From the IMG/VR virus record IMGVR_UViG_3300005537_000027, positions 1 through 61,990 of that record: a stretch of 61,990 nt of DNA; one strand, 5' to 3'. Both the position numbers and the translations under genes were made by a program. The notes under the pieces are model-generated. The model was not told the DNA's origin and ran no database searches. It was given only the letters and a program-made list of their open reading frames with translations. This DNA is from a virus. Below, one piece after another: positions 2,574-51,600 of this stretch (position 1 is the first letter of the stretch; every line of letters begins with the position of its first letter).

Positions 2574-2686
2574 GTCTCCACCAGTCCCTCTACCGAAAGG
2601 TGTGCGCTGGTGCTGTCCCCAGTGCTCCCACCAAAACTACGCACACTGGAGCAATTGTGCCCTGTGCGGTCAGGAGAAGCCCAAAG
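2548..2686 (+). other. RanBP2-type zinc-finger reading frame leading into the Sak4 gene
   Basis: ATG 2548, with GAGGA upstream, opens a frame encoding W-x-CPQC-x3-N-x6-CALCG, the W-x-C-x2-C ... N ... C-x2-C signature of RanBP2-type zinc fingers. The frame fills the gap up to the start of the Sak4-like ATPase at 2687. It stays open in the wrong frame to 3564, but beyond about residue 47 that reading is a shadow of the ATPase. The finger could be a free peptide of uncertain end, or the N-terminal domain of the ATPase reached by a +1 shift near the CCCAAAG at 2680-2686. The finger motif is clear; how it is expressed is not. Confidence 0.5.
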
Positions 2687-3634
2687 ATGCCAGCCCTCAG
2701 CCAACACCAGTCCGCAACATCTACCAAGGTCTTGCTCATTGGGGACTCCGGAGCCGGCAAGACGGGAGCCCTGGCATCCCTTGCTTCGGCTGGGTTCAAC
2801 CTCCGGATTTTGGACTTGGACTCGGGGCTGGACATCCTGTTCAACCTGCTGAACGATCCGAAGTCGCCCTACACCAAGGACTCGATCTCCCGCGTGCAGT
2901 ACATGACGCTCACCGAGCCGATGAAGGTGGTGGGAGGGAAGCTGGTGCCGGTGAAGGTGGATGTGTGGCAGCGAGCGATGAACCTCTTGTACCACTGGAA
3001 AGAGCCCCCTGCGGTGGACCTCGGGCAGCTCACGAGTTGGACATCTTCGGACGTCCTGGTAATCGACTCCCTGTCCACCTTTTCCACAGCCGCGATGAAC
3101 TTCGTGCTCTCGATGAACGGACGTATCGGGCAGCGGCCGCATCAATCAGACTTCGGCCAAGCCCAGGACCTAGTCGAGGGAGCGTTGCAAATGCTGTTCA
3201 ACGACAATATCAAATGCAACGTGGTTGTGACTGCGCACATTGCCTACATCGGGGAGGAGAATGGACCGACCCGAGGCTATCCGAACGCGCTCGGGAAAGC
3301 GCTGCCTCCCAAAATCGGGCGGTACTTCAATACCATGCTTGGTGTGAAGAGCAGCGGGCAAGGGAGCGCCGTGAAGCGGAAGATCCTGACCAACACCTCG
3401 GGAGTGATCGACCTCAAGAACTCCGCGCCTCTGCGGGTGCCACCGGAGCTTCCGCTGGAAACGGGATTGGCCGAGTACTTCAAACTCGTGCGGGGGACAG
3501 CCCCATCGAGCCCGTCTTCCTCGACCTCGCCCAGCGGCTCCCAAACTACGGCTACGGTCGTTAACCCTCAGGCCGGAATGCCCGTCACCCTTCTGGGAGG
3601 CACGAATGTCAAAGCGCCGACCCTGGCATCATAG
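2687..3634 (+). CDS. Sak4-like RecA-fold recombinase/ATPase
   Basis: 315 residues from ATG 2687 (AGGAG about 10 bases upstream). Walker A is GDSGAGKTGAL near residue 19, followed by LRILDLDSGLDIL. Walker B is SDVLVIDSL and a downstream NVVVTAHIAYIG strand matches the sensor of AAA_24/Sak4 proteins. These phage proteins are RecA-like ATPases that anneal or exchange single strands and usually pair with an SSB, which here is two genes downstream (3775). A proline/serine-rich tail ends the protein. A zinc-finger frame lies directly 5' in another frame and may belong to it. Confidence 0.85.
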   Translation: MPALSQHQSATSTKVLLIGDSGAGKTGALASLASAGFNLRILDLDSGLDILFNLLNDPKSPYTKDSISRVQYMTLTEPMKVVGGKLVPVKVDVWQRAMNLLYHWKEPPAVDLGQLTSWTSSDVLVIDSLSTFSTAAMNFVLSMNGRIGQRPHQSDFGQAQDLVEGALQMLFNDNIKCNVVVTAHIAYIGEENGPTRGYPNALGKALPPKIGRYFNTMLGVKSSGQGSAVKRKILTNTSGVIDLKNSAPLRVPPELPLETGLAEYFKLVRGTAPSSPSSSTSPSGSQTTATVVNPQAGMPVTLLGGTNVKAPTLAS

Positions 3635-3854
3635 CCTTCCCACTCCCCTCACCCTGGGGCAAGCAGAGCAGCTGGAGTGGCCCAACACCCAGTTCCTAAC
3701 CCCAGCCATCTTTTTACTCCACGACCCAGAAAGGAGCATCACCAAACTCAAACTCTCACCCAAGGAACCAGATCATGGCCAAGTCAAAGCAACAGACCCA
3801 GCCAGCTCAACCAACCCAACCCAACCCACCGAAAGCACAACCAACCATGAGTGA
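3606..3854 (+). CDS. Possible small hypothetical protein
   Basis: 82 residues. ATG 3606 follows a strong GGGAGG by 5 bases, which is why it is listed. It overlaps the end of the Sak4 gene and the first 80 bases of the SSB-like gene in other frames. The second half is rich in threonine, serine and proline and may be only a shadow of the low-complexity N-terminus of the next gene. It fills an otherwise empty gap from 3635 to 3774. Confidence 0.4.
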   Translation: MSKRRPWHHSLPTPLTLGQAEQLEWPNTQFLTPAIFLLHDPERSITKLKLSPKEPDHGQVKATDPASSTNPTQPTESTTNHE

Positions 3855-4287
3855 CTCCTCCGCTACCGACTTCCGCGCCCTGCTCTCCAAGCCCACGGAG
3901 ACCATCGAGCGGCCGAAGGCCCTTCCGGTCGGCACGTACCTGGGGACTATCTCCAAGTACGAGTACGGCAAGTCGGCCCAGAAGAAGACCCCCTACGTCC
4001 GGTATTTTATCTCCCTCACGGGAGCGGGCGAGGACGTTGACCCTGACGCGATGGAGGGCGTGGACCTCTCCAAGAAGCAGATGCGCAAGGACTACTACCT
4101 GACCGACGACGCCCAGTACCGGGTGAAGGAACTCTGGGAGTCCTGCGGCATCGACGGCACGGGACGCTCGCTCGGCGAGATCCTGCCCGACCTCGTCGGG
4201 ATGCCCGTGATGCTGGAGGTGACCAAGCGCAACTCCGAAGACGGCAAGGATGAGTTCAACGACGTCGGCACTGTCCGGGGTCAGTGA
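3775..4287 (+). CDS. SSB-like single-stranded DNA-binding protein
   Basis: 170 residues. After a low-complexity Q/P/T leader comes FRALLSKPTETIERPKALPVGTY, then strands G-TISKYEYGKSAQKKTPYVRYFISL and a C-terminal GMPVMLEVTKRNSEDGKDEFNDVGTV. This is the layout of phage OB-fold SSB/replication proteins that follow Sak4-type recombinases. ATG 3775 is preferred over the internal ATG 3847 because AGGA precedes it. A rho-independent hairpin follows the stop by 5 bases. Confidence 0.65.
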   Translation: MAKSKQQTQPAQPTQPNPPKAQPTMSDSSATDFRALLSKPTETIERPKALPVGTYLGTISKYEYGKSAQKKTPYVRYFISLTGAGEDVDPDAMEGVDLSKKQMRKDYYLTDDAQYRVKELWESCGIDGTGRSLGEILPDLVGMPVMLEVTKRNSEDGKDEFNDVGTVRGQ

Positions 4288-4429: not shown

Positions 4430-4791
4430 CTTCGGTGCATGAACTGCTGTTGGAACTCAATCGGACCTATACCGAAATTCACGAGTTGCGTAGTGCCTTG
4501 GCTGATGCTCTTGTGACTTTCGATATGGGAGCTGAGCACGCCACCAAGTATCACCTCCGCTACTCTGCTGTCATCCACCGCGCAAGGCTGGAGAACCCGA
4601 ATGCTGACAAACGACTTTCAGTTGGTGCCCCTGGCAGCCATTGTTGTGAACCGAGCGGAACGCCAGCGCCGGAAGGTGGACACGACGGGACTGAGGGACT
4701 CGATCCAGCGCAACGGCCTCATCAACCCGATAGTGGTGACGAGGGAGATGGTGCTGGTGGCGGGGGAGCGGAGACTGACGGCGTGCACTGA
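4426..4791 (+). CDS. Small helical protein overlapping the ParB-methyltransferase gene
   Basis: GTG 4426 overlaps the previous stop as GTGA. The first 60 residues (VHELLLELNRTYTEIHELRSAL ... YHLRYSAVIHRARLENPNAD) look like a genuine helical protein. From 4601 on the frame lies beneath the ParB-methyltransferase gene and becomes a glycine/glutamate-rich shadow, so the real protein may be about 60 residues with an unusual overlap, or the tail may be tolerated read-through. Function unknown. Confidence 0.45.
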   Translation: MTSVHELLLELNRTYTEIHELRSALADALVTFDMGAEHATKYHLRYSAVIHRARLENPNADKRLSVGAPGSHCCEPSGTPAPEGGHDGTEGLDPAQRPHQPDSGDEGDGAGGGGAETDGVH

Positions 4792-5998
4792 GCTTGGGCA
4801 TGTCACCATCGCGGTAAGGTTCGCGGAGGACCTCTCGCCGTTCGAGCTCTCGGTGATTGAGCTTGAGGAGAACCTCAAGCGCACGGATCTGAGTTGGCAG
4901 GACGAGGCCCAGGCCATCGCGAAGCTCCACGAGCTTTATTCCAGCGCCGAACCGGGGTGGAGCCAGGCCAAGACCGCACAGGCCCTGAGCATGGCCCCGG
5001 CGCAAGTGTCCACGATCCTGAGAGTGGTGAAGGAGTTCGCCGACCCCCGCATCGCCGGAGCCACCGGCCTCCAACCCGCTTACAACATCATCCAGCGCGC
5101 GGACGAGCGCCGCATTGGTGATGCTATGGGGGACATCGTCCAGGCCAACGCGGATATCTTCGCGGAGCGGCTGGTGGTGGAGACAGGTGGACTTGTGCCG
5201 ACTGATGCAACCGTAGCAATCGGTAAGCCTGTCAACAAGCCTATCTTGGCAGCTACTCCGGTGGCCCCTCCGGAGTCCATCCTCAACACCTCGTTCCTGG
5301 ACTGGGCACCGCAGTACACCGGGCCCAGGTTCTCGTTCATCCACTGCGATTTCCCCTACGGGATGAATGTGTTCGGAGGAGCCATGTCCGGTCGGGACAA
5401 GTGGAACACCTACTCCGACACCCCCGACACCTACTGGGATCTGATCCGCTGCCTCTGCCTGAACCTGGACCGAGTCATGTCCCCCAGCGCCCACCTCATG
5501 TTCTGGTTCTCGATGGAGCACTATGAGGCCACCCGCCGGATCTTCCGAGACCTCGCCCCGTCGCTGGTGTTTTCCCCGTTCCCGCTGCTGTGGCAGAAGT
5601 CCGACAACGTCGGCATCTTGCCGGACTCCAACCGAGGCCCGCGCCGGATCTACGAGACCGCGATGGTCGCCTCCCGCGAGGACCGTTTCATCGTCAAACC
5701 CGTCTCCAACGCCATCGCCGCCCCCACTGACAAGGCCCACCACCCAAGCGCCAAGCCCGTCCCCGTGCTCAAACACTTCTTCCAGATGTACGTGGACGAG
5801 AACACCACGCTGCTCGATCCGACTTGCGGAGGTGCCTCGGCTCTGATCGCCGCTGAGGCTCTGGGCGCCAAGCGTGTCGCTGGGTGTGAAATGGACAAGG
5901 AGCACTGCGCCAACGGCCGTTCCGCTCTCCGCCAGTTCCGCTCCCTCCGTGCCGCCGCGCAGGTGGTCTACGAGAAGGACCGGAAAGATGGTCGCTGA
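4601..5998 (+). CDS. ParB-like N-terminal domain fused to a DNA adenine/cytosine-N4 methyltransferase
   Basis: 465 residues. Residues 7-90 form a ParB/sulfiredoxin-like domain (LRDSIQRNGLINPIVV, then AGERRLTAC with the GERR box). A helix-turn-helix-like linker follows (WSQAKTAQALSMAPAQVSTIL). The C-terminal half is an N6/N4 amino-methyltransferase: catalytic DFPY at 250-253 (a DPPY variant) and the SAM-binding DPTCGGASALIAAEALGA near 405. Such fusions usually modify phage DNA, protecting it from restriction or marking it. The ParB part may guide it to sites. Confidence 0.85.
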   Translation: MLTNDFQLVPLAAIVVNRAERQRRKVDTTGLRDSIQRNGLINPIVVTREMVLVAGERRLTACTELGHVTIAVRFAEDLSPFELSVIELEENLKRTDLSWQDEAQAIAKLHELYSSAEPGWSQAKTAQALSMAPAQVSTILRVVKEFADPRIAGATGLQPAYNIIQRADERRIGDAMGDIVQANADIFAERLVVETGGLVPTDATVAIGKPVNKPILAATPVAPPESILNTSFLDWAPQYTGPRFSFIHCDFPYGMNVFGGAMSGRDKWNTYSDTPDTYWDLIRCLCLNLDRVMSPSAHLMFWFSMEHYEATRRIFRDLAPSLVFSPFPLLWQKSDNVGILPDSNRGPRRIYETAMVASREDRFIVKPVSNAIAAPTDKAHHPSAKPVPVLKHFFQMYVDENTTLLDPTCGGASALIAAEALGAKRVAGCEMDKEHCANGRSALRQFRSLRAAAQVVYEKDRKDGR

Positions 5999-7049
5999 AC
6001 CCTTCGCCCACACCAGCGGACCGCGCGATGCCAAGGTTGTGGTCGTTGGCGAAGCGTGGGGCGAGCAAGAGGAACTCACCGGCCGTCCGTTCGTCGGCGC
6101 ATCCGGCCAGGAACTCACTCGTATGCTCACCGATGCGGGGATCTCCCGCAAGGATCTCCTCCTAACCACCACCCTCGCCATTCGCCCAACCGCGAACAAC
6201 ATGGACTCGCTCTGCGCGAGCAAGAAAGACGTGGGGTTTAATTATGCACTGGCGCCGCTCCGTCAAGGCAAATACCTCCTCCCCGAATACCTCCCGGAAC
6301 TCGCGAGACTGGAAGCGGAACTTACTGCATATCCTCGCAATCTCGTTATCGCACTCGGCGCTACTGCTTGCTGGGCTTTGCTTGGCCGTGGAGCTGTTGG
6401 TACTCTCCGCGGTGTTGTGGCGCATAGTGTGGGGTTAGCCCCAGGGCTCAAAGTCCTTCCCACCTACCACCCCAGCGCCGTGCTGCGCAATTGGGCTCTC
6501 CGTGTGATTGTCATCGCAGACCTAATCAAAGCGAAGCGTGAGAGCGAGTTCCCTGAGATCCGTCGGCCCCAACGCCAAGTCCTGGCCGACCCGAGTCTAG
6601 TCGATATTGAGGACTGGTTTAACCGGGAGGCCAAAGATGCTAGTATTCTTAGTTGTGACATCGAGACTGCTAACCGCGCAATTACTTGCATCGGGTTTGC
6701 CAGCTCCACTACATCCGCTATCTGCATTCCCTTTGCTGATAATCGATACCCTGGTGGAAGCTATTGGCCTGATCACGCTAGTGAGGTCACTGCTTGGCGT
6801 TGGGTGAAAGCGGCGCTGGAATTGCCGTGCCCCAAGCTATTCCAGAATGGTATGTATGATCTGAACTACCTGTATCGCATGGGCTTCCGAGTCCGCAATT
6901 GCCTCCACGACACGATGCTGCTCCATCACTCCATCTTCCCAGAAATGCAGAAGAGCTTGGGGTTCATGGGCAGCATCCACACCAACGAGGCCAGTTGGAA
7001 GCTCATGCGGCACAAGAAGAAGGAAGAGGAGTTGAAACGTGATGAGTGA
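5988..7049 (+). CDS. Uracil-DNA glycosylase domain fused to a PolA-type 3'-5' exonuclease domain
   Basis: 353 residues from ATG 5988, which overlaps the methyltransferase stop and has GAAGGA upstream. Residues 16-175 carry UDG-superfamily motifs (VVVGEAWGEQEE, GRPFVGASGQEL, and PTYHPSAVLR). Residues 215-345 carry DnaQ/PolA exonuclease motifs I (CDIETA) and II (FQNGMYDLNYL). The protein ends at KKEEELKRDE, where family A polymerases would continue into ExoIII and the polymerase. That continuation is found 1.3 kb downstream in the gene at 8364. Pairing base excision with proofreading suggests uracil removal at the fork. Confidence 0.85.
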   Translation: MVAEPFAHTSGPRDAKVVVVGEAWGEQEELTGRPFVGASGQELTRMLTDAGISRKDLLLTTTLAIRPTANNMDSLCASKKDVGFNYALAPLRQGKYLLPEYLPELARLEAELTAYPRNLVIALGATACWALLGRGAVGTLRGVVAHSVGLAPGLKVLPTYHPSAVLRNWALRVIVIADLIKAKRESEFPEIRRPQRQVLADPSLVDIEDWFNREAKDASILSCDIETANRAITCIGFASSTTSAICIPFADNRYPGGSYWPDHASEVTAWRWVKAALELPCPKLFQNGMYDLNYLYRMGFRVRNCLHDTMLLHHSIFPEMQKSLGFMGSIHTNEASWKLMRHKKKEEELKRDE

Positions 7050-7898: not shown

Positions 7899-8039
7899 GA
7901 TTTCGCCGCGCCTTGCCCCGTGCCGTGGGGTGGTAGGTGTCACCCACCATGAAACGGGGTTGCCCATCCCTTGCCCCGCATTCCGCCGTTTCCGTCGATG
8001 CGTATCCTGATACCGTTCCCCACCCCGGAGGCTCCGCTC

Positions 8040-8360
8040 ATGCTCTGCGTCATCGTTGCCAGCCCTTTCGCCGGTCCCAACATCTCGATCCGCAGGCGGA
8101 ACGTCGAGTACGCAAAGAACGCGATGGAGGATAGCTTTGCCAGGGGTGAGGCCCCGCTGGTGTCGCACCTCTTGTACCCGCAGGTCCTCGATGACATGGA
8201 TGAGGTGGACCGGAACCTAGCGATCGCCGCGGCCTCGGCCTGGATGGTCAAGGCGGATTTGCTAGCAGTCTACGCCAACCTCGGGATCTCCCCGGGCATG
8301 AAGGCAGAGATTGAACTCGCCACCCTCCTCGGCGTGGTTATCGACCACAGGAGCATCTAA
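8040..8360 (+). CDS. DUF7768-like small protein (nucleoside 2-deoxyribosyltransferase-like fold)
   Basis: 106 residues from ATG 8040, chosen because GGAGG lies 7 bases upstream. CVIVASPFAGPNISIRRRNVEYAKNAMEDSFARGEAPLVSHLLYPQVLDD is a recognisable phage/bacterial family. The ASPFAG start, the N-x-x-Y-A helix and the conserved GEAP-x-SHLLYPQ resemble nucleoside deoxyribosyltransferase-like domains. It may act on nucleotides or modified nucleosides; the catalytic residue is not certain. It lies just upstream of the polymerase half-gene. Confidence 0.7.
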   Translation: MLCVIVASPFAGPNISIRRRNVEYAKNAMEDSFARGEAPLVSHLLYPQVLDDMDEVDRNLAIAAASAWMVKADLLAVYANLGISPGMKAEIELATLLGVVIDHRSI

Positions 8361-8363
8361 CAG

Positions 8364-9839
8364 ATGCTCATTAAAACCCACGAGCTGAAGCCCGACGACC
8401 GCCTACCGCAGAACGACCAAGTCTACAACGGCCTGGACTGCATGGTAACTCTCGAGGTCTTCTATGCCCTGCAAACGCTCTTCAACCAAGAGCCCGAGGT
8501 CTATGGGTTCGAACGTGCACTCCAGGGACCTGCCCTGGAAATGTCCATGCGCGGCTTCCGCATTGACGAGACCGAGAGGCAAATCGGAGCCCAGGCCCTC
8601 CGCACCAAGCTCAAGCACCTTACGATGGTGCTCGATCGCTTGGCCTTTGCGGTCTGGGGGAAAGGACTGAACCCTCGCAGTCCCAAGCAGCTAATCGACT
8701 TCTTCTACGGGGAGATGAAGCTGCCGGAGCACTGGAGCAGCAAGAAGGGCATCCGCCGCCTCTCCACCGATCGGGAGACCTTGGAAAAGCTCTCCATCTA
8801 CTTCCACGCCCTCCCGATCATCAACACCATCCTCGCCATCCGGGACTACGCCAAGCAGCTGGAGGTGTTGGAAACCGAGATAGACGGGGACGGCCGCTTC
8901 CGAACCTCCTTCAACATCGCTGGAACTGAAACCTGGCGTTGGTCCTCCAGCGGGAGCAGCACCGGCACAGGCCGTAACATCCAGAACATTGCCCCCGAAC
9001 TCCGGAAAATGTTCGTAGCGGACCCGGGCTACGTCCTGGTCGGCATTGACCTGGAGCAGGCGGAAAGCCGCGAGGTTGGTTGGCTCTGCGGCACGATCTT
9101 TGGGGACTGGACATATCTGGACGCCTGCTATTCGGGGGACCTTCATGTCACGACCACCAAACTCATCTGGCCCGAACTCCCCTGGACCGGAGACCCCAAG
9201 CTCGATCGTGCGATTGCCGACGAGAAGTTCTACCGAGAGTTTTCTTACCGGGATCTGGCTAAGCGTGGTGGCCATGGTAGTAATTACATGGGCACTCCTT
9301 GGACCATGGCACGGCACCTCAAGGTCGTCCTCCGTATCATGGAGAACTTCCAGCGCGCGTACTTCGGCGCGTATCCTGCAATTCCCAAGTGGCACCAGTG
9401 GGTTGCAACCCAAATCCAAACCACCCACCAACTCACCACTCCCTGGGACGTCACCAGGACCTTCTTCGGTCGTCCCAATGACGACACGACCCTCCGCGAA
9501 GCTATTGCATTTTCCCCCCAGAGTTCAACCGCCATGCGAATGAACCTGGGGCTGTACAAGGTGTGGAAGCACTTCGGGAACGCGATCCAGCTCCTGGCCC
9601 AAGTCCATGATGCGATCTACTTCCAGGTCCCCGTCACCGCCGACCTCCCCGAGGTCTGCAAGACCACCCTGGGACTGATCGACATCCGGCACGAGTACCA
9701 GGGCCATCAGCTGATCGTCCCCGGCGAGTGCAAGACTGGGTACAACTGGGCCAGCTATGACCCAAAGACCAACCCAAATGGACTGAAAAAGGGTACTGCT
9801 CTGCGCCCCCGACTTGAGGGCCTTGATCGGGTGTTCTGA
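8364..9839 (+). CDS. Family A DNA polymerase, palm/fingers part with residual ExoIII motif
   Basis: 491 residues from ATG 8364 (AGGAGC upstream). The protein opens with YNGLDCMVTLEVF (residues 21-33), the ExoIII Y-x3-D motif whose partners ExoI and ExoII are in the gene ending at 7049. Polymerase motif A is VGIDLEQAESREV near residue 228, motif B is KRGGHGSNYMGTPW near 299 and motif C is QVHDAIYF near 414. The enzyme copies the phage genome. Because the exonuclease fold is divided, the two polypeptides probably reassemble. Confidence 0.92.
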   Translation: MLIKTHELKPDDRLPQNDQVYNGLDCMVTLEVFYALQTLFNQEPEVYGFERALQGPALEMSMRGFRIDETERQIGAQALRTKLKHLTMVLDRLAFAVWGKGLNPRSPKQLIDFFYGEMKLPEHWSSKKGIRRLSTDRETLEKLSIYFHALPIINTILAIRDYAKQLEVLETEIDGDGRFRTSFNIAGTETWRWSSSGSSTGTGRNIQNIAPELRKMFVADPGYVLVGIDLEQAESREVGWLCGTIFGDWTYLDACYSGDLHVTTTKLIWPELPWTGDPKLDRAIADEKFYREFSYRDLAKRGGHGSNYMGTPWTMARHLKVVLRIMENFQRAYFGAYPAIPKWHQWVATQIQTTHQLTTPWDVTRTFFGRPNDDTTLREAIAFSPQSSTAMRMNLGLYKVWKHFGNAIQLLAQVHDAIYFQVPVTADLPEVCKTTLGLIDIRHEYQGHQLIVPGECKTGYNWASYDPKTNPNGLKKGTALRPRLEGLDRVF

Positions 9840-40488: not shown

Positions 40489-41229
40489 ATGGACACGAAC
40501 AATACTCTTGCTTCGCAGGCTCCCGCCGCAACGGCCAAAACCCCGTTCCGGTTCGAGCCCGAGCGCTTCCGGCACTCCACCATTTACAAGGAGGATCTGC
40601 CGGTTGCCGCCATCGACTACCTGCTGGGCTATGGCTACTCCAAGTCCATGCAGGACAAAATCGCCGGTCAGGTGAAGCTGCGGAAGAGCATCGACTCGGA
40701 CAAGGCCCTCACGGAGCGCGCGGTCAAATACATCAAGGATAACATGCAGAAGGGCATGACCAAGGCCCAAATCGACGCGGTCCGCGCCAAGGCCGCCGGG
40801 CTCTATGGCTTCGAATACGCCACGGAGTACGAGATCGACAAGGGCACGGGCAAGCCGAACATGGCGAAGCCCACCCGGTTCGACGAGGCTCGCATCACGG
40901 CCGAGTGCAACGATATGTTGGACTCGCGTCACGCGGACATCCTCGCGGGCACGGTCAACACCCGCGCGGCAGCGGCCGCTCCCAAAGTCGATCCCATCAC
41001 CAAGCATATGATGGAGTCGGCACTGGCCACGGTCACGGCGGCGATTACGGCCAAGGGCATGACCCTGCCGGCCGAGGATCTGGAGGGCTATGCCCAGGTC
41101 TACTTCGAAAGCCACTACGCGCAGTTGCGCGCGGCGGCCGAGTTGGCGTTGACGCCGGCAAAGGTCGAGTCCCGCAAGGTCTTTTCCCTCGCGGACATCG
41201 GCCTGGAGGAGGAAGAAGACGCGGCCTAA
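40489..41229 (+). CDS. Phage protein with internal LADIGL motif near the C-terminus
   Basis: 246 residues, AGGAG before ATG. The body is helical and lysine/alanine rich (DYLLGYGYSKSMQDKIAGQVKLRKSIDSDKALTERAVKYI), with no recognised catalytic motif. Near the end is VFSLADIGLEEEEDAA, the F-x-L-(S/A)-D-I-G-L element that ends three other proteins of this phage, here followed by an acidic octapeptide. Strong codon bias and an isolated terminator suggest a well expressed product. Confidence 0.7.
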   Translation: MDTNNTLASQAPAATAKTPFRFEPERFRHSTIYKEDLPVAAIDYLLGYGYSKSMQDKIAGQVKLRKSIDSDKALTERAVKYIKDNMQKGMTKAQIDAVRAKAAGLYGFEYATEYEIDKGTGKPNMAKPTRFDEARITAECNDMLDSRHADILAGTVNTRAAAAAPKVDPITKHMMESALATVTAAITAKGMTLPAEDLEGYAQVYFESHYAQLRAAAELALTPAKVESRKVFSLADIGLEEEEDAA

Positions 41230-43716: not shown

Positions 43717-44196
43717 ATGCCCACCCCAACTTCCCTTTCGCTAACGCTGGAGTTCAACCTCGGACCGCGCCATTTCCGCGTCTGGTCCGATCCGCTCCAG
43801 CCCCACCAGTTGACCATCCAGGAGACCACGGCCCGGAACCTCTCCACGTTCCAAATGGGGTTCCCCCGCGCGTGGCCCGCGTATGAGATGGAGCACCTCA
43901 TCAAGCAGGCGGTGGTTGTGATAACCAACCGGGACCACTCGCAGGCCCTTCTCGCCAACGCGAACGACCGGCCCGTGCACCTCATCGCACCCAGGCGTCC
44001 AAGCGCCGCCAACCGATGCCCGACGTGCAAAGGCTGGGCCAAAGCCTACCGACTGGAGCACGGCCACTCGTGCCCGACGTGCCTTGGCACCGGGGCCAAA
44101 CCTGCGGTCGAAGCCAAACCCACCCCCGTGCCGGCCGGCAAGCGTAAGCTCGCCAAGACCCAACGGGAGTTCAAGCTAAGCGATATCGGACTTTAG
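43717..44196 (+). CDS. DnaJ-type zinc-finger protein with C-terminal FKLSDIGL tag
   Basis: 159 residues. N-terminal beta/alpha part (LTLEFNLGPRHFRVWSDPL), then a two-half zinc finger of DnaJ type (CPTCKGWAKAYRLEHGHSCPTCLGTG, near residues 100-125), a proline/alanine linker, and the end REFKLSDIGL. The tag is encoded with different synonymous codons from those in the other tagged genes. Possibly a nucleic-acid or chaperone adaptor whose tag recruits it to a phage complex. Confidence 0.72.
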   Translation: MPTPTSLSLTLEFNLGPRHFRVWSDPLQPHQLTIQETTARNLSTFQMGFPRAWPAYEMEHLIKQAVVVITNRDHSQALLANANDRPVHLIAPRRPSAANRCPTCKGWAKAYRLEHGHSCPTCLGTGAKPAVEAKPTPVPAGKRKLAKTQREFKLSDIGL

Positions 44197-45489: not shown

Positions 45490-45529
45490 CGTGGGTGGAA
45501 CTTCCCCCACCACAACAAGGAAACTCCAA

Positions 45530-47167
45530 ATGGCAACTAACGGCAAAGCTTCCCCTCAGGCCACCACCCAGGCGCTTTCGGCCCAAGACGCCCTGATGTC
45601 GCTCATCACCTCCGCCCTCCAGGGCAAGGGGACGGACTGGGCGCACCAAGACACCGAGATCCTTCGCGAGGGGACCAAGATCGTTCTCCCCTCCACTCCC
45701 GGTCCGATGCCCATCCCGGCGGCGATCGCAGCCCTTCAGCGCAAGCAGAAGGACGAAGAAACCGAGATGGCCGTGCACGAAGTCATCGACACTTACCCGA
45801 TGGACGGTGCAGTGGCGTTCGTCAAGGCGCTTCGCGAGATCTACGGCTGGGCCAGCCCGACGCCGATCATGAGCTGGTTCGGTCCGCAGCCTCCGGAACT
45901 CCTGACGGTCCAGACCGGCCCGGATACCAAGGTCCAGGTCCCCTGGGGCGAGTTCACTGTCCCCGGCATCGAGAACACCATCGGGGTCTCCACCCAGCAT
46001 ACCGACACCGGCCCTCACTTCGTCATCTACGGCAGGGTCAAGAAGCGCGAGCAGTTCGTGTTGCTGGAACTCGCCCAGCGCACCCGCGAGATCCTCGCCC
46101 GCGAGAGCATCTACAAGGGCCAGGCCATTCGCCTGCGCACGGACTCGGACGGGGACATCGACCACAACAAGCCGCCGGAGTTCCTCCCCACCTCCTACAT
46201 CCGGCCGTCGGAGCTGATCCTCAACGCGGATGAACTCGACCAAGTCGACACCGCGCTCTGGACCCCCATCCGACACACCGCCGAGTGCGTCAAGCACGGC
46301 ATCCCGCTCAAGCGCGGGGTCCTGCTGGAAGGCACCTACGGCACGGGTAAGACCATGACCGCCAACGTTACCTCCAAGGTCTGCGTCCAGCACGGGTGGA
46401 CATTCATTCTCCTCGACGATGTCCGGGCACTCGAAGATGCCCTGCTCTTCGCCAAGCGCTACTCCCCCGCAGTCGTCTTCGCCGAAGACATCGACCGGCT
46501 GCTGGAAGACCGGGACCAGGAGGCCAACGACCTCCTCAACACCATCGACGGCGTGCTGACCAAGAACTCCCAGGTCATCACCGTGCTCACCACGAACTTT
46601 GTCGAGAAGATCGACAAGGCGATGCTGCGGCCGGGTCGCCTGGACGCGGTGATCTCCATCCGCACCCCCGACGCCCACAGCGTCGCACGGCTGATCCACC
46701 TCTACGCTCGGGGCCTGATGGCCGAAGGCGAGGATCTCGCGGACGTCGGCACGGTACTGGCGGGCAACATCCCCGCTACCATCCGCGAGGTGGTCGAACG
46801 TAGCAAACTGGCCATGATCGCCGGTGGCAGGACCCAGATCACTGCCAACGACCTCATGATCAGCGCGAAGGGGATGAAAGACCACCTCACCCTGCTGGCC
46901 GAAGGCCCCAAGGTGCAGTCGCCGGCCGAACGCCTGGGCTCGGTGCTTATCAACGCGCTCGGCTCGCCCGACGCCCTTGCCGCCGATCTGCTCCGGCAGG
47001 AGGCCCAGGCCCTCAAGCTCCAGGTCTACGAACTCCGCAAGAACGTGGTTCAGACCGGCGCCCAGTCCGACCATGTGGCACGGACGTCCACCGCTGTCCT
47101 CGCCGAGGGCCACAAGCAGATCAACAAGAAACTCGACACGGTTGTCGAAGCAGTCGTCGGCAACTAA
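45530..47167 (+). CDS. AAA+ ATPase, FtsH/Cdc48-like ATPase domain
   Basis: 545 residues from ATG 45530. An N-terminal 230-residue domain of unknown type precedes the ATPase core: Walker A LLEGTYGTGKTMTA near residue 265, Walker B AVVFAEDIDRLLED, and sensor/arginine-finger region LTTNFVEKIDKAMLRPGRLDAVI. A helical C-terminus with a coiled coil (LLRQEAQALKLQVYELRKNV) ends it. No protease domain is present, so it is probably an unfoldase or remodeller of a host or phage complex. Confidence 0.85.
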   Translation: MATNGKASPQATTQALSAQDALMSLITSALQGKGTDWAHQDTEILREGTKIVLPSTPGPMPIPAAIAALQRKQKDEETEMAVHEVIDTYPMDGAVAFVKALREIYGWASPTPIMSWFGPQPPELLTVQTGPDTKVQVPWGEFTVPGIENTIGVSTQHTDTGPHFVIYGRVKKREQFVLLELAQRTREILARESIYKGQAIRLRTDSDGDIDHNKPPEFLPTSYIRPSELILNADELDQVDTALWTPIRHTAECVKHGIPLKRGVLLEGTYGTGKTMTANVTSKVCVQHGWTFILLDDVRALEDALLFAKRYSPAVVFAEDIDRLLEDRDQEANDLLNTIDGVLTKNSQVITVLTTNFVEKIDKAMLRPGRLDAVISIRTPDAHSVARLIHLYARGLMAEGEDLADVGTVLAGNIPATIREVVERSKLAMIAGGRTQITANDLMISAKGMKDHLTLLAEGPKVQSPAERLGSVLINALGSPDALAADLLRQEAQALKLQVYELRKNVVQTGAQSDHVARTSTAVLAEGHKQINKKLDTVVEAVVGN

Positions 47168-50300: not shown

Positions 50301-50717
50301 ATGGCACGGTTGACTTGTACTCTCGTTGGAATGCACTTCCGGCCTCCGGCCAAAGCCATCCTGGCGAATTTGCCAGCCGGTGCTCAGCTCGACCTAGTCC
50401 CTGAGCCCGACAATATGTACGACGAGCACGCTGTCAAGGTGGTGGTGGACCCTGGCGAGGTCCCCTCTACCCAATACGAAGAACTCGACAACGCCATGGC
50501 TGGACAAGGCCACGACTCTGCCGAGTTCCTCAAAGGTCCCCCGTTCCATCTGGGGTATATTGGTTCCAAGCCCGGTAGGAAAGGTCCCATGCCAGGGATC
50601 ACATACGCGCCGGATCTCGCCCCCGTCCTGGCCCAGGCGGATGACTACAAAGCCGAACTCGGGTTTGACCTGAGCGGCGACCCGATCGTCTACGTCACAA
50701 TCATGGCTCACGAGTAG
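50301..50717 (+). CDS. HIRAN-domain protein
   Basis: 138 residues. LTCTLVGMHFRPPAKAILANLPAGAQLDLVPEPDNMYDEHAVKVVV and later FHLGYIGSKPGRKG are the conserved blocks of a HIRAN domain, which in helicases such as HLTF binds 3' DNA ends. As a free-standing domain it may recognise DNA ends or damage. It lies upstream of the transposase-like gene, the repeat array and the UvrD-like helicase. Confidence 0.75.
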   Translation: MARLTCTLVGMHFRPPAKAILANLPAGAQLDLVPEPDNMYDEHAVKVVVDPGEVPSTQYEELDNAMAGQGHDSAEFLKGPPFHLGYIGSKPGRKGPMPGITYAPDLAPVLAQADDYKAELGFDLSGDPIVYVTIMAHE

Positions 50718-50739: not shown

Positions 50740-51600
50740 ATGGCTGAAAGTACCCGCCCGGACCTTGATCCGGTAGCACGCCTCACCCGCGACTTGCGCA
50801 ACGCTGCCAGAACCCTTTCGAGCGACGAGGCCAGATTTCTGGTCGACGCATACTACGCGATGCAACGAGACCGCATTCGCGCCGCCCACCAGGAACGGAC
50901 CCTCGCCGAGGGCTCCGAACCGCACGACACCATGCAGTGGTTGTTGGTGCAACGCGAGACCCTGGAAAAGCAGGTCGCTCGCGCGCTCGACGTCTACAGC
51001 AACGCGCATCCCGCTGGGGAATGGGCGCGGTCTATCTGCGGCATCGGCCCGATCATCGCGGCCGGGCTGCTGGCCCATATCGACATCACCAAAGCCCCCA
51101 GCGTCGGGCACATTTGGCGTTTCGCCGGCCTCGATCCCACGGTCAAGTGGGAGAAGGGTCAGAAGCGGCCCTGGAACGGTGCGCTCAAGCGTCTCTGCTG
51201 GCTCATCGGGGAGAGCTTCACCAAGGTCTCCTCGAACGAGAACGACACCTACGGGAAGATCTACAAGGCCCGGAAGGAACTCGAAACCCAGCGTAACGAG
51301 GCGGGGCATTACGCGGACCAAGCCAAGGCTGCCCTGGCCGCGAAGAAGTTCGGAGCGGACACGCAGGCCCGGAAACACTACGAGGCCGGCCGTCTCCCGC
51401 CGGCACGTATTCATCTCCGTGCGCAGCGGTATGCGGTGAAGCTCTTCCTCGCGCACTTCCACCATGTGTACTACGAGATCCACTTCGGCAAGGCTCCGCC
51501 GATGCCCTATATTTTCACCGCCGAGGCCGCGATCACCCACGGCCAGCACGTTCACTATATCGCGCCCCCGAACTGGCCGATCGCCCAAGCGGCGGAGTAG
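50740..51600 (+). CDS. IS110-family C-terminal (Transposase_20) helix-hairpin-helix protein without the RuvC-like domain
   Basis: 286 residues (GGGAG upstream). Residues 95-165 hold the helix-hairpin-helix and following strands of IS110/IS116 transposases (ICGIGPIIAAGLLAHID, then WRFAGLDPTVKWEKG and ALKRLCWLIGES). The N-terminal 90 residues are helical and lack the DEDD RuvC-like fold of active IS110 enzymes. The position of the catalytic serine (SG before the arginine-rich helix) reads KWEKG. It is therefore probably a DNA- or RNA-binding derivative, not a working transposase. The repeat array begins 24 bases after its stop. Confidence 0.78.
   Translation: MAESTRPDLDPVARLTRDLRNAARTLSSDEARFLVDAYYAMQRDRIRAAHQERTLAEGSEPHDTMQWLLVQRETLEKQVARALDVYSNAHPAGEWARSICGIGPIIAAGLLAHIDITKAPSVGHIWRFAGLDPTVKWEKGQKRPWNGALKRLCWLIGESFTKVSSNENDTYGKIYKARKELETQRNEAGHYADQAKAALAAKKFGADTQARKHYEAGRLPPARIHLRAQRYAVKLFLAHFHHVYYEIHFGKAPPMPYIFTAEAAITHGQHVHYIAPPNWPIAQAAE

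Follow-up and report, generated by a model that had tools for sequence, protein, structure and literature searches.

A viral genome in which several proteins with different bodies end in the same short peptide raises the question of what holds that peptide in place. The window analyzed here is a virus record of 61,990 bases, and LSDIGL followed directly by a stop codon closes three of its ORFs, with stops at 926 (68 aa), 44196 (159 aa) and 58363 (116 aa), as the first-pass annotation had reported. The tail-bearing proteins are called P0001, P0002, P0003 and P0004 by stop position (Table 1). P0002 had been named as a fourth carrier, with the motif followed by an acidic tail. Its ORF (stop 41229) closes with SLADIGLEEEEDAA and a stop, which places SLADIGL seven residues ahead of the protein end. 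Motif and acidic tail are thus present, but P0002 is a looser case than the other three, as its orthologue in the related record G001 ends differently (LDLSTLFGDEPDEG...) and the one in G007 is without a tail. The difference in G001 led to a chance match being considered for P0002, and this was dropped when tails were found on family members ending in VEIDLSDLGL (G008), SLDLDDLID (G014) and EIDIDDLF (G019). Because these members carry the tail, the P0002 family, judged by its protein ends, does belong to the tail-bearing set.

Table 1. Tail-bearing proteins and associated genes, with positions in the window unless a locus is named.
Feature	Position	Strand	Details
P0001, 68 aa	720..926	+	tail KSLSDIGL; LSDIGL codons 906-923
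PD-(D/E)XK exonuclease adjoining P0001	1228..2166	+	no tail; Pfam PF12705 6.1e-15, phrog_1218; bait for relatives
Sak4-like recombinase (start uncertain), candidate hub	2600..3634	+	no tail; phrog_124 7.1e-17
170-aa core protein after Sak4, putative SSB by position only	3775..4287	+	no tail; 21/21 records
Presumed family A DNA polymerase part, candidate hub	8364..9839	+	no tail; 82% identical in G001; 20/21 records
P0002, ~246 aa from internal ATG (ORF from 40348)	40489..41229	+	SLADIGL, then EEEEDAA; LADIGL codons 41188-41205
P0003, 159 aa, zinc-finger-like	43717..44196	+	tail FKLSDIGL; LSDIGL codons 44176-44193
P0004, 116 aa	58013..58363	+	tail FKLSDIGL; LSDIGL codons 58343-58360
Gene 66, distant relative of P0002	59255..59851	+	in the window only LVLDDLIAKATAG near its end; core, 21/21 records
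HNH endonuclease of G024, mobile	L131:9860-10405	minus	C-terminal extension ending EITLDDLTGV; sub-threshold Pfam match

Whole-protein homology as the source of the shared end is ruled out. When the carriers were checked for full-length relationship by profile comparison, hhalign aligned the P0001 and P0003 families over KSLSDIGL/FKLSDIGL alone, P0003 and P0004 likewise over the tail alone, and the remaining pairs gave nothing credible. After removal of the last 20 residues, BLAST at E 0.01 separated 24 proteins into 11 body families and 61 listed carriers into 18, a count that treats the gene 66 and P0002 families separately although they are distant relatives. Family searches add little to this picture. 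For the four window proteins, the sole result in Pfam and PHROGs was a weak zinc finger match of the DnaJ/zf_Rg type in P0003; ten further proteins (eight carriers from relatives and two from the phage Kuura) gave a weak HNH match, weak zinc-finger matches in the P0003 protein of G007 and nothing else credible; and gene 66 had no match to any Pfam or PHROGs family at E 0.01. A small carrier of G013 is presumably ribbon-helix-helix-like, and its family search gave no credible match. Neither the DNA nor the proteins of the window matched any phage in GenBank. The predicted folds also differ, since the model of a P0002-family member is all-alpha apart from two short strands (mean pLDDT 91.9), with its last ten residues as coil at a pLDDT of about 73, and the AF2 model of P0004 is alpha+beta (mean pLDDT 91.0). 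In the P0004 model the protein's own tail has a pLDDT near 84, and binding of the tail in cis is conceivable on this model. The two models had no Foldseek match among solved structures at E <= 0.001 (the best Z scores, 3.8 and 4.5, are uninformative), and P0004, the only one of the two searched against viral models, had no convincing match there.

The closest relatives separate the tail clearly from the residues that precede it. G001, a 63,215-base record found via P0003, is collinear with the window except for the start point and has counterparts for most window genes. Its orthologues of P0001, P0003 and P0004 are 57%, 47% and 38% identical to those of the window and end in PKSLSDIGL, ALSLADIGL and LRLSDIGL, respectively; the corresponding ends in G007 are SLSDIGL, SLTDIGL and KLSDIGL. 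The peptide is therefore present on the orthologues of all three proteins in both relatives, where its loss had been looked for, and exact LSDIGL was found only in the window, G001 and G007. In P0003 and P0004, the alignment of window and G001 is poor and gapped ahead of the tail, and the ungapped linker codons that could be compared are non-synonymous in 24/30 cases for P0003, in 22/30 for P0004 and, less often, in 12/30 for P0001. Of the codon pairs among the three window tails, 5 are identical, 13 differ synonymously and 0 non-synonymously; with nine tails from three phages, the corresponding numbers are 60, 141 and 15. The first-pass annotation had argued from synonymous codon differences that the peptide itself is selected, and the 141 synonymous vs 15 non-synonymous pairs support it; this codon usage indicates that what selection keeps is the peptide, not the DNA. 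As in other short linear motifs, a conserved short peptide stands behind a variable, probably disordered linker.

Comparison with G001 also informs on other parts of the window. A gene for a TROVE/Ro60-like RNA-binding protein (window 60846-61990 + 1-135; PF05731 1.6e-13, phrog_850) is interrupted at the ends of the window but complete in G001, and the record is therefore probably circular or permuted. An IS110-type transposase-like gene (window 50740-51600; PF02371, phrog_4285) is 82% identical in G001 and thus seems to belong to the genome stably instead of being a transient insertion. An AAA+ ATPase gene (window 45491-47167; phrog_10440 2e-122) has no counterpart in G001, and a small HIRAN-like protein (window 50301-50717; PF08797, sub-threshold) is encoded in 16/21 related records.

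The position of the motif within proteins excludes a chance origin. In a set of 21 related phage records with 10,354 ORFs and 976,670 residues, which took all ORFs of at least 35 aa, real or not, and included G025, a contig of an Acidobacteria MAG, the motif class [LIVMF]x[DE][LIM]G[LIFM] occurs 24 times directly at the stop codon, 18 times at distances of 1-29 residues combined and 34 times further in, each single distance above 0 and below 30 having 0-2 occurrences. These 24 exact C-terminal occurrences also answer the suggestion that the motif be sought at protein ends throughout the phage and its relatives. Reordering the motif classes in 720 ways gave a median of 0 occurrences at the C-terminus; 24 were obtained with the six equivalent orders and 9 with the best of the others. 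Furthermore, all 24 C-terminal motifs share the strand of P0001, and the opposite strand has 0, with similar numbers of ORFs on the two (5318 and 5036). This strand is called early by inference from the replication genes that it carries. Looser acidic-hydrophobic tails follow the same direction, with 62/3339 early-strand ORFs, 19/2950 ORFs of the other strand and 112/20,000 pseudo-C-termini. Some carriers are ORFs without homologue support (e.g. G001 46386-46775), and a search at the DNA level for D[..]G[LF] followed by a stop matched only 15/26 records, one of them a whole bacterial genome.

Beyond the closest relatives, the tail is a real, group-wide feature whose spelling changes with the lineage. 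With the exonuclease next to P0001 as bait, 327 relatives were found in viral contigs, of which 80 loci were kept (some family members coming from near-identical contigs), together with three places in bacterial assemblies. The P0001 family comprises 85 ORFs in a profile search of 91 stretches, the profile containing its own tail; a tail-trimmed profile gave 129 matches including doubtful ones, which were left out of the counts. Members consist of an N-terminal domain, a linker that is often Lys/Ala/Pro-rich and a tail spelled by lineage as SLDDLGL, NLDDLGL, TIEDLGL, SLADLGL, SADDLLKDIDLNF, SVDELLSGLD, SLDDLFKDL, DLSDLDD or GDIDL, and more distant relatives use SLADLGL, DDLFKDL, LDDLLGDF and DELLEGLE. 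The P0004 family has 36 members by a profile with the last 20 residues removed, all of which have a tail of the type by eye, those of L073, L112 and G009 only loosely. The group extends to the isolate Kuura, whose P0001 homologue (E 1.2e-8) ends in LNIDDLFSE and a second protein, of 221 aa, in LSIDDLLSTL. Kuura is reported as a Caulobacter podophage, isolated on Caulobacter sp. B15 (PMC9959647).

Within one phage, the proteins tend toward a common spelling. SLADLGL was found on three proteins of G025 and TIEDLGL on two non-homologous ORFs of L098; NLDDLGL, SLDDLGL and GLEDLGL occur together in G019, and TLADLGL and TLKDLGL on non-homologous ORFs of G023. Comparison of the P0001 tail of each phage with all its other C-termini revealed several carriers apiece in G013 and G018, those of G013 ending in SADELLSDILGD, SLADLLGDD, LDLDELLGDF and SITDLIGE. 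The same holds for other spellings, with PELDLSDLDD and PELNLDDLED in G002, LSVDELLSGLD and LDFDELLEGLE in G014, pairs of the DDLFKDL type in G003, G004 and G006, and ELSLDDLGL, EISLEDLM and EITLDDLTGV in G024. In G015 the second carrier is only loose (P0004 end ITLAGLGL), and in G005, G009, G020 and G021 this comparison revealed no convincing second carrier. To quantify the agreement, P0001 and P0004 tails were subjected to a permutation test, after thinning at a P0001 identity of 60% (36 loci to 10 clusters) or by hand (9 or 13 representatives). P0004 tails are closer to the P0001 tail of their own phage than to those of other phages: for the last 8 residues in 9 phages, with one picked from each cluster, the observed value is 21.4 vs 15.3 (sd 1.5; p = 4e-5), with p values of 0.001 for 10 and 0.0014 for 12 residues in the same 9 phages and of 6e-5 for 10 residues in 13 phages. 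The test with 10 clusters agrees. Shared composition may be part of this signal, because an effect, albeit a weaker one, is likewise seen in the sequence ahead of the tails (p = 0.018).

Orthologues differ in whether they carry the tail at all, as described for short linear motifs. One core family (cluster 6) has it in 5/20 members, and the HNH endonuclease of G024 has acquired it as an extension that is missing from 4/4 aligned homologues (405 phage records hold homologues; five were fetched, and the fifth, without annotation, was left out). Judged from these alignments, the tail is gained and lost in small families.

Based on these features, LSDIGL is probably how this lineage spells a C-terminal docking motif that is in use across a large group of PolA/Sak4 phages, the podophage Kuura included. 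A docking motif for a co-evolving partner is suggested because the peptide is C-terminal and short, follows a flexible linker, sits on unrelated bodies, has a lineage-bound spelling and was gained by a mobile gene. In the proposed mechanism, the tail would be attached in each phage, via a flexible linker often rich in Lys, Ala and Pro, to a number of small early proteins whose bodies are unrelated, and all carriers would bind one pocket on one partner. As the pocket shifts between lineages the tails would follow, and would thereby stay similar within one phage and diverge from phage to phage. That the tails have a common partner is likely. There is about an even chance that this partner is a phage replication or recombination protein (polymerase, primase/helicase, methylase or Sak4), with the tails holding accessory proteins, which probably bind DNA, at the phage DNA during its replication.

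Several other readings of the tails have to be weighed against docking on a phage partner. Docking onto the host sliding clamp (beta), in the manner of the C-terminal RQLVLGL of Pol IV, is suggested by the end x-[LI]-G-L with its free carboxylate and by carriers that look like small accessory proteins. According to PMC11139829, the clamp motif is Q-phi-x-[LM]-x-[FL], its Gln matters yet is not strictly needed, and the terminal carboxylate of Pol IV contacts Arg152. However, position 1 of the tails is L, I or V rather than Gln, position 2 is usually S, D, E or A rather than aliphatic, and LDDLLGDF, DELLEGLE and DDLFKDL do not fit. The host beta-clamp pocket is conserved, and such a pocket does not predict lineage-specific co-variation, which leaves this reading unlikely. 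An equally unlikely alternative is that the tails are mimics of the SSB C-terminus (DDDIPF type) that bind in trans to SSB receptors, perhaps the Sak4 of the phage. Their acidic-hydrophobic ends and the place of Sak4 among the core proteins would suit this, as would the SSB-like core protein, which is without an acidic tail of this kind in 21/21 records; a precedent is reported for HK620, where the cognate SSB requires its final six residues (NDYPPF) for binding to Sak4 (PMC5928155). Nevertheless, the tails have no Pro-Phe end, their carriers are many unrelated proteins rather than SSB, and the divergence of the tails does not follow that of Sak4 (partial value -0.25).

Readings that dispense with a docking partner fare worse. 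C-terminal position and hydrophobic ends would be compatible with degradation signals for a host protease, but a C-degron calls for fixed C-terminal residues, and here the end residues vary between lineages (L, I, F, D, E, A, V). In addition, the motif is also present 2-11 residues ahead of the end, the conserved positions include an acidic one and a lineage spelling would not be expected. This candidate was rejected and is very improbable. Hardly any weight is left for a gene-level artefact, that is, recent copying of the tail between genes, or DNA signals, such as a ribosome-binding site for the following gene, from which the peptide would result by coincidence. Several carriers do lie within one operon-like block, yet 13/18 codon pairs of the window differ synonymously, the tails persist at 38-57% protein identity, and the DNA downstream of the three window stops differs; both forms of the artefact were rejected.

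For docking on a phage partner, natural hub candidates are the tail-less early core proteins present in nearly all records, namely Sak4, the SSB-like protein, polymerase, primase, helicase, methylase and exonuclease. The 170-aa SSB-like protein had no family match. The family A polymerase is encoded in two genes with a DUF7768 gene between them (window 5874-7049, 8019-8360 and 8364-9839), the first of which we take to contain a uracil-DNA-glycosylase-like part ahead of an exonuclease-like part. The gene at window 4601-5998, presumably an apparent fusion of a ParB-like domain with a DNA methylase, has relatives in 19/21 records. When tail distance was correlated with nine core proteins across 17 records, the partial values ranged from -0.37 to 0.38, with the methylase highest, and did not single out any one candidate. 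A clamp recognizable by sequence was rejected, as both clamp models were without a match in 16 genomes: the bacterial-type model has matches in 10/14 control genomes, and the T4-type model PF02916, for which the controls are weaker, passed its cut-off in 0/14. This search used sequence alone on records that may be incomplete, and a diverged clamp could escape it. The first-pass annotation had proposed a docking motif on one partner, such as a clamp, polymerase, protease adaptor or phage compartment. The short linear motif on unrelated proteins and its selection at the peptide level held up, but the named partners are not established. The clamp models had no match in these 16 genomes, and the varying end residues argue against a C-degron. 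A more speculative extension, which we hold tentatively and consider somewhat less probable than its opposite, is a clamp-less 'tool belt', in which a single fast-evolving phage hub, whose pocket sets a lineage-specific docking code, would bring together at the replicating phage DNA as many as about seven small early proteins in each phage, of zinc-finger, ribbon-helix-helix-like and nuclease types, the code being acquired even by a mobile endonuclease.

Small early phage proteins are mostly without known function, and a shared, lineage-coded tail makes them one set. The tail names this carrier set from sequence alone in any relative, and one peptide could pull the set down. No description of the tail motif was found in the open-access literature, as judged by title and the start of the abstract.

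Among known systems, the beta-clamp motif of Pol IV and Hda is similarly a short peptide and can be a C-terminal LGL with a free carboxylate (PMC11139829). In contrast, the tails are without Gln at position 1 and without an aliphatic residue at position 2, and agree with the published motif only toward its end (x-[LI]-x-[LF]). The SSB tip (DDDIPF; NDYPPF in HK620) is likewise a C-terminus of acidic-hydrophobic type and serves to recruit partners, Sak4 among them (PMC5928155), whereas the tails occur on many other proteins, are absent from the SSB-like core protein and end in PF in zero listed carriers. Docking by a C-terminal tail is also reported for T7, where the acidic C-terminal tails of gp4 on the gp5 polymerase link proteins of the replisome to a polymerase of family A (PMC12593628); here, the tail is a short hydrophobic stretch containing one or two acidic residues and is absent from the polymerase, Sak4 and SSB-like core genes. 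The nearest precedent would be the binding of gp43, gp55 and gp33 of T4 to the gp45 clamp. The C-termini of these three are reported to be highly similar and interchangeable, and not conserved among all T4 relatives (PMC2988020). The two systems differ in that the tails studied here occur on 18 body families in 61 listed carriers, which are small early proteins without known function and not polymerase or transcription factors, and in that a gp45-type clamp was not recognized by sequence search in 16 genomes. They share the main trait, in that unrelated proteins of one phage have similar hydrophobic-acidic C-termini. If the docking reading is correct, these phages would be evolving a private docking code of the kind described for three T4 proteins and a clamp.
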